A DNA stretch of 64,000 nt, taken from the NCBI GenBank assembly GCA_001464625.1, contig LNFJ01000151.1, positions 1 through 64,000 of the forward strand. The letters are read 5' to 3'. Origin of the DNA: Bacteroidia bacterium Ga0077558. GTDB taxonomy: Bacteria > Bacteroidota > Bacteroidia > Chitinophagales > Chitinophagaceae. Positions 59,069-60,614 of the stretch are shown piece after piece (positions within the stretch are counted from its first letter, which is position 1; the number at the start of each line of letters is the position of its first letter). Under the pieces are notes generated by a model. That model saw nothing but the letters and a program-made list of their open reading frames with translations, was not told where the DNA came from and searched no databases. The position numbers and the translations under genes are program-made.

Positions 59069-59186
59069 AGTAATATGTTTAACGTATGTAATGCAAGTTA
59101 CAGTTGGCAATATGCCTATCCAATACCCGATTCCCACAAATGTAACAGATTTTGTCTTATAATATATATTATGTTAAACAGGCACA

Positions 59187-59217
59187 CGGGGAGGCGGAAC
59201 GGGAATACAAAAAAATA
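59187..59217. repeat. Left inverted repeat of the HEPN element
   Basis: Contains GGAACGGG-N4-CAAAAAAATA. The reverse complement of 60501-60530 contains GGAACGGG-N3-TT-type spacing then CAAAAAAATA, an imperfect match. Confidence 0.5.
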
Positions 59218-59263
59218 GCTGGGCTTCTGACCTACCGGCGGTATAGTTCGGGACTATGGCGTA

Positions 59264-60223
59264 TTAAGTGAAGATTAAATCGTTTAAAAAATCGTCTAAC
59301 TTAGATGAAAGAAATTTCTCTGAATCTTCTAGAATAACTTTATTTAGAACCTTTCTCAAAAGTTCGTCTGCATTGGATGATACAATTTTCAAGTATTCGT
59401 TTTTGCCATTTTTAAGCTGTTGCCCGTGAGAAAACTTCGACCGAATACCATAAATTTCTTTTGAAAGCATATAATTTGATTTCTTGTTATCCTGACCCCC
59501 TCCTAAATAAAACGCAACCCTTTCAGACACTTTATGTGTTATTTCATTAGTATCTGTTGTAAATAGGCATTCAAGAACATTGACGTATGTAGATATTTTA
59601 GCAGGAAGAAACGAATTGTGCCTTGCCATCACTAGAAAACTCAATGCTCTTTCTATTCTATTAGTCTTACTGTGGTCAACGAAATGATAGGGAGAATCAT
59701 GAACTCTTTGCCCAGTATTAAGAGGCGGCACATCGCTACTAAGTTTTTGTTCTATTTCGCTAATCTTTGCATTTATTTCTACCGCCTTATCTATATCATT
59801 AATCCCAAACGATTCTAATTGATGAAATTCTCCCTTCGAGTTGCTTTTTCCTGCTGTGTCTGAAACCTTATAATATAATTTTTTGTCTTCTTCATGTGTA
59901 TAAATACCGCCGATATTCGCAGCATTATCTTTAATAAACCATAGGCAGTCTAATAAGTTATTGAGTTTGGAACGAATTCGCAGTGTTTCTTTTGCAAGAG
60001 ACTCGCTATTGTCAACAGGATAACATTTTACGAAATAAGGCCATTTGAGAAACATTTCAACTGTGATTAGTCCAATCTGTTCTATAAATTCCAAATTAAA
60101 ATGTTCTTTATACAGCTTGCCATCATCTAGCGGGAAAACTATTGCGCCGCTATCTAATTCCAGGTCTTTACATGAAGGATCAAGTATAATATCCCGTAGT
60201 GGGCATACTGTTATAGCTTTCAT
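59264..60223 (-). CDS. ApeA-like HEPN domain protein (putative RNase)
   Basis: A 319-residue protein. The C-terminal half is a HEPN fold with the ribonuclease motif R261-x4-H266 (IRSKFSHG), preceded by ALSFLVMARHNSFLPAKISTYVNVLECLFTTD and VSERVAFYLGG as in ApeA-like HEPN domains. The N-terminal half (about 1-170) is an unrecognised sensor-like part. HEPN proteins often cleave RNA in phage defence. It is AT-rich, alone, and bounded by inverted repeats. ATG 60223 is chosen; a longer frame extends upstream. Confidence 0.8.
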   Translation of the reverse strand: MKAITVCPLRDIILDPSCKDLELDSGAIVFPLDDGKLYKEHFNLEFIEQIGLITVEMFLKWPYFVKCYPVDNSESLAKETLRIRSKLNNLLDCLWFIKDNAANIGGIYTHEEDKKLYYKVSDTAGKSNSKGEFHQLESFGINDIDKAVEINAKISEIEQKLSSDVPPLNTGQRVHDSPYHFVDHSKTNRIERALSFLVMARHNSFLPAKISTYVNVLECLFTTDTNEITHKVSERVAFYLGGGQDNKKSNYMLSKEIYGIRSKFSHGQQLKNGKNEYLKIVSSNADELLRKVLNKVILEDSEKFLSSKLDDFLNDLIFT

Positions 60224-60434
60224 TTTCGCCAATTTGATTAGGCGAATAAGATAAAGATTTTTTAATAATAAACGTTTTAGTTGCCTCAGTGATAAAATAT
60301 TCAACATCAATGCGCCCGTCATTCCATCCAACACATCTCTGGGCAAGCTCACATAACTTTTGCCAAACACCACTATCACCATCCCCTTGCGGGTTTAGTG
60401 CATTATTAGTGGTATCGTCCTTCGGACTATCCAC
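60180..60434 (-). CDS. Possible small ORF overlapping the HEPN gene start
   Basis: An 84-residue frame from GTG 60434, directly after an in-frame TGA, overlapping the HEPN start by 44 nt in another frame. The middle (VWQKLCELAQRCVGWNDGRIDVEYFITEATK) looks protein-like, but no domain is recognised. It could be a partner gene or a chance frame. Confidence 0.25.
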   Translation of the reverse strand: MDSPKDDTTNNALNPQGDGDSGVWQKLCELAQRCVGWNDGRIDVEYFITEATKTFIIKKSLSYSPNQIGENESYNSMPTTGYYT

Positions 60435-60500
60435 TCATCCGTAAAATTTGGGTATTTAACTCTCTACCAACGAAGTCGGCTTCGCCTCCTAATTCCTTTT

Positions 60501-60530
60501 TATTTTTTTGAACCCCGTTCCACTCTCCCG
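60501..60530. repeat. Right inverted repeat of the HEPN element
   Basis: Reads TATTTTTTTGAACCCCGTTC on the plus strand and then a CTCCCG end, complementary in large part to 59187-59217. Confidence 0.5.
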
Positions 60531-60582
60531 CCTATCGACTTGCTCATCTTCGTGTTAATTGATTTGATAATACAGAATTAAA

Positions 60583-60614
60583 ATAAGAAAAGCTACAGTT
60601 AAGTAGCTTTTCTT
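60583..60614 (-). terminator. Terminator of the gyrA-TPR transcript
   Basis: Minus-strand stem AAAAGCTAC / GTAGCTTTT (60588-60596, 60603-60611) with a 6-nt loop and following CTTATTTT. Confidence 0.75.

Follow-up and report, generated by a model that had tools for sequence, protein, structure and literature searches.

A HEPN-type gene pair inserted at the chromosomal dif site of a Chitinophagaceae bacterium, a probable decayed member of a class of integrase-free dif cassettes

In the 64,000-nucleotide stretch of contig LNFJ01000151.1 of Bacteroidia bacterium Ga0077558 analyzed here (the window), a 1,406-bp insert (59179..60584, unstranded) holds a HEPN-type gene together with a small partner and adjoins the chromosomal dif site, a location absent from the initial annotation of this DNA. 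Other Chitinophagaceae carry small integrase-free cassettes at dif, bounded by attachment sites (att) that contain a hairpin. We propose, as the probable reading, that the window locus is a decayed, immobilized dif cassette put in by the host XerC/XerD.

The dif site lies at 59152..59179 on the forward strand, with the XerC arm TTGTCTTATAA, the center TATATA, and the XerD arm TTATGTTAAAC. The dif sequence of Escherichia coli, GGTGCGCATAATGTATATTATGTTAAAT, served as the reference. The core motif ATAATNNAYATTATGTTAA is present as a single copy per genome in 313 of 384 genomes of the family, with almost no matches for the reversed control, and the GC skew at the window site changes sign, from +0.12 on the left to -0.18 on the right (a local switch). 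Moreover, the dif position adjoins a TPR gene in nearly all genomes of the genus that have this region. Contig ends were observed close to the dif-side TPR gene in five assemblies (G401:C41, G416:C108, G400:C844, G402:C661, and G412:C42); cassettes or hairpins may break assemblies there. The source genome of the window's contig comprises 4.08 Mb in 196 contigs.

The left junction of the insert falls within dif itself, in the XerD arm. The closest relative, the sister genome G424, is 96% identical to the window over the 600 bp left of the insert and 90% on its right. The match runs to the GTTAAA of the XerD arm, after which G424 has 12 bp (TAGTTGATCCCA) instead of the insert, and the shared edge, TTGTCTTATAA-TATATA-TTATGTTAAA, was read as dif. 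Empty sites in relatives are thus real: nearly all genomes of the genus are empty at this position, and the HEPN gene is absent there from the sister and from all relatives read, including the distant ones. No other member of the genus in the family sample carries the gene. It is hence very improbable that the HEPN pair has long resided at the dif site and was lost from the relatives, with repeats that play no part in movement, even though dif-proximal regions are plastic and relatives of the HEPN gene occur elsewhere in the family (19 of 394 genomes, the window's own included) with no dif link seen.

Ten base pairs from dif begins the left arm of an imperfect inverted repeat (59189..59217, forward strand; GGGAG-GCGGAACGGGAATACAAAAAAATA), whose right arm lies at 60501..60529 on the reverse strand (GGGAGAGTGGAACGGG-GTTCAAAAAAATA). 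The repeats seen in the initial annotation proved genuine, the local alignment of one arm with the other scoring 36, which at most 1 in 2000 dinucleotide shuffles equaled. The gapped motif GGAACGGGN{0,6}CAAAAAAATA occurs in the genome of the window exactly at the two arms and in 2 further places among the 394 family genomes, both within unrelated coding regions. The arms are therefore not general filler repeats, and the repeat ends were not found around other genes. BLAST searches with each insert end against the own genome, and with the left end against the family, returned chance matches only, and an Rfam search gave nothing significant. Two short look-alike hairpins were noted near the insert ends, at 59241-59261 (TATAGTTCGGGACTAT) and 60410-60432 (TATCGTCCTTCGGACTAT).

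The earlier view of a compact mobile cassette without a transposase holds for the insert itself, for the empty sites, and for the lack of a recombinase, whereas the repeats are probably not transposon ends, the boundary being dif, 10 bp outside the repeat. In Acinetobacter, IS1202-family elements have TGT/ACA ends, lie on the XerC side at a distance of 5 bp, and are accompanied by 5-bp duplications (PMC10132070). The window has GGG ends on the XerD side and no transposase gene, and an IS1202-family identity was rejected. More generally, the main rival reading is that the insert is a transposon-like passenger with the 29-bp arms as terminal repeats, placed beside dif by a transposase encoded elsewhere; we consider this unlikely. 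Such a passenger would account for the clean repeat beginning 10 bp from dif. Insertion sequences that target dif and have imperfect repeats of 24 to 26 bp exist (PMC10132070), and the genome G289 has the bases up to AGGCACACG without the HEPN insert. However, the XerD side, the GGG ends, and the absence of any visible 5-bp duplication around the repeats differ from the IS1202 type, and the repeat ends recur as ends neither in the own genome nor in the 394 family genomes. The inverted repeats are probably the flanks of a dif cassette using host XerC/XerD. Inverted-repeat flanks are also found at three dif cassettes (L154, L190, and L241) and weakly at L219; several true dif cassettes have no significant one.

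Between dif and the left arm lies a flank of the AGGCRC type, CAGGCACACG (59179..59188, forward strand), directly 3' of dif. Of 31 dif loci with additional dif-like sites, 10 have this type of flank, against 4 among 110 loci with a single site (Fisher p=3.8e-5), and the flank of the window, ACAGGCACAC, is also found in G289 and at L190. In G289, AGGCACACG is present as the plain flank of the right dif, so the motif may belong to the chromosome, in which case the element would start at 59189.

The HEPN-type gene (59264..60223, reverse strand) encodes 319 amino acids: its longest open reading frame would give 372 aa, from 60382, but the relatives align from the methionine at 60223. The R261-x4-H266 motif reported earlier is exact in this protein (RSKFSHG) and sits in its C-terminal, predicted helical region; R261, S262, H266, and G267 do not vary among the 15 sequences aligned, in which the relatives share 24 to 40% identity with the window protein. 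From the motif and from plasmid-borne relatives annotated as "HEPN domain-containing protein," the product is presumed to be an RNase, and we infer that it may function in defense. The label "ApeA-like" was too strong. The likeness to ApeA consists of an R-x4-H motif in a C-terminal region predicted to be helical and of one 33%-identical relative that matches HEPN_Apea (PF18739) at E=0.005, below the curated cut-off. Unlike ApeA, the window protein matches no Pfam family and no PADLOC ApeA model, and its near relatives match neither a Pfam HEPN model nor a PADLOC ApeA model. A PADLOC match to PtuB (E=1e-4) spans just 60 residues of the window protein and is absent from the relatives; it was set aside. 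A PDB profile search with the HEPN protein gave no match, and the AlphaFold models (with one and two input sequences, pLDDT 35 and 43; pTM 0.33) were too poor to confirm a HEPN fold, which left their Foldseek matches meaningless. The gene was found in none of the GenBank phages searched.

The small gene (60180..60434, reverse strand) encodes at most 84 amino acids, its GTG start being uncertain, and overlaps the start of the HEPN gene by 44 bp. A homologue stands upstream of the HEPN gene in three other genomes (L058, L061, and L066); judged from this conservation, the overlapping frame noticed earlier is real coding sequence and a conserved partner gene. By the search used, most HEPN relatives have no such small gene, which is therefore not essential to all of them. 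The pair could instead be a plain toxin-antitoxin system in which the small protein is the antitoxin, serving to stabilize the cassette and not to counter phages. A small gene preceding a predicted RNase, overlapping frames, an order kept in four loci, and a HicA-type toxin gene in another dif cassette all make this an appreciable possibility; the lack of a detected small gene beside most HEPN relatives keeps it on the doubtful side.

The wider setting comes from 110 of the 313 dif loci of the family, which were read over 1.5 to 4 kb on each side. The composite att was defined as an inverted dif copy, a perfect hairpin (12 bp or more), and a direct copy, in this order, within 70 to 200 bp. Many extra dif-like sites were found among these loci, and 10 of the 110, plus the genomes G289, G418, and RBC053, have composite att modules of this kind, with perfect hairpins of 18 to 31 bp. 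They total 19 (16 after duplicate removal) with 0 on reversed sequence, a control that guards solely against chance composition. The cassette rates are indicative, since the same loci served to develop the search, the att definition, and the counts. The composite atts bound integrase-free cassettes of 0.5 to 1.5 kb. G289 (Chitinophagaceae bacterium IBVUCB2) and G418 (UBA2789) belong to the window's genus and carry different inserts at the same dif, and the metagenome-assembled genome (MAG) RBC053 has another insert at dif. The att of G289 folds at -40 kcal/mol (z=-10.4), and many cassette hairpins have GCGATTTTT...AAAAATCGC in common. Most of the genomes sampled are MAGs, and assemblies break at hairpins; in G418, both hairpins contain N's.

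The cassettes contain one to a few small open reading frames, with no recombinase recognized. Their proteins mostly match nothing, the exceptions being one HicA toxin, DUF1737 in two, and one HEPN-like protein. Several loci deserve separate mention. The dif cassette L154:592-1510 encodes a HEPN-like protein (RNKFAH) with matches to Csx1/Csm6 (E=0.001) and RiboL-PSP-HEPN (0.01). L211:2922-3990, between two dif-like sites, holds a HicB/HicA-like pair (HicA by Pfam, E=0.0006; HicB by eye). In the dif array L096:2100-4500 of RBC053, an 807-bp cassette stands twice in tandem and is followed by a different third cassette. By eye, one cargo type recurs among the small proteins without an assigned family, a soluble N-terminal part with a C-terminal membrane helix (L177, L190, L191, L218, L240, L241, and L242).

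How the window insert relates to this class depends on its right end. The insert lies at the chromosomal dif and contains no recombinase open reading frame, and the host genome encodes one XerD over the curated cut-off plus two further Xer-like proteins. The only intact dif-like site in the window is the left one; at the right end there is no second dif and no GCGATTTT hairpin, and a strict test for a composite att across the window found none. A possible degenerate, inverted att remnant (ATAATACAGAATTA) lies at 60541..60584 on the reverse strand, a weak match without hairpin or right-hand dif. Its similarity to the att of L219 has p=0.0006, and its composite score is weak, with p=0.013 against window segments and p=0.038 against AT-matched ones. 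The idea that this end held a direct dif lacking 4 bp was rejected (composite score p=0.15), the inverted remnant being weakly favored. With the right composite att missing or degenerate, membership of the dif cassette class is likely only. The dif junction, the AGGCACAC flank, the inverted-repeat flanks, the size, and the absence of a recombinase, set against the missing right dif and hairpin, point to a decayed member.

The same arrangement is found in tailed phages. A hairpin search of IMG/VR returned five viral contigs (L252, L253, L254, L255, and L256) in which dif-like sites lie beside the conserved GCGATTTTT hairpin and small cargo genes stand between phage genes. At least two of the five, L252 and L253, are clearly tailed phages from their head-tail genes, and a further tailed-phage contig, L245, was found through the inverted att. 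In its cassette (L245:7700-8420), the two halves of the hairpin enclose the two att copies, a layout that a circle cut at the hairpin loop would give. The insert protein of L253 resembles, by eye, the DUF1737-type protein of chromosomal cassettes. That tailed-phage contigs contain the cassette arrangement suggests how the cassettes may be transferred.

Three known systems come close to these cassettes. Like CTX-type single-stranded DNA (ssDNA) phages and the Bacteroidetes microvirus prophages BMV4-6, which carry an extra inverted dif-like sequence (PMC3091885), they sit at dif without an integrase of their own, and intact cassettes have a second, inverted dif-like copy near one end, which fits a folded ssDNA att. 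Unlike those phages, they measure 0.5 to 1.5 kb, hold one or a few small genes, none recognized as a capsid, replication, or secretion gene, and have a long perfect hairpin between the att copies, the window copy being without the right att. The dif (pdif) modules of Acinetobacter reside mainly on plasmids and have plain pdif sites (PMC6449649, PMC12907356). The likeness there is to small Xer-bounded accessory units, some with toxin-antitoxin genes, arrayed and without a recombinase; in contrast, the cassettes have a composite hairpin att and are located either in tailed phages or at the dif of the chromosome, and the window has one intact Xer site, not the two that bound such a module. Integron cassettes, too, consist of a single gene with a folded attachment site and accumulate at one place in the chromosome, at times as tandem copies (as at L096). 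Here, though, that place is dif, and nothing implies an integron integrase, so this is a resemblance only. No description of hairpin-att dif cassettes in Bacteroidota was seen among the open PMC papers that the literature searches listed, and we provisionally regard these short cassettes as a new form, with known dif modules and Xer-exploiting phages as their nearest counterparts.

We propose a model in which the att of the element would recombine with the host dif through host XerC/XerD and so enter the chromosome. As ssDNA, the two att copies would pair into a XerC substrate, whose stem the inverted-repeat flanks may extend. By analogy with CTX-type phages, a circular single-stranded cassette could fold in this way before replication resolves the product. 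The window element would have kept its left end, with a working dif, the AGGCACAC flank, and the repeat, whereas nothing, or no more than a remnant, would be left of its hairpin and right dif; the element would thus probably be locked in place. The HEPN protein would most likely be a metal-independent RNase, triggered by phage or stress and modulated by the small protein.

If this is true, the locus would represent capture of a one-gene unit without a dedicated integrase, built on the recombination site that is conserved best in the chromosome, and this in a family whose dif biology is little studied. The action of XerC/XerD on folded single-stranded sites beyond vibrio phages would also become testable. 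As the cargo so far consists mostly of unknown small proteins, along with two HEPN-type genes and one HicA-type gene, dif would be a place to seek new defense or toxin genes. Tentatively, and with somewhat less than even confidence, Chitinophagaceae and their tailed phages may share an integron-like system in which dif captures folded-att genes through XerC/XerD, the phages act as carriers, and the HEPN pair of the window is a decayed example.
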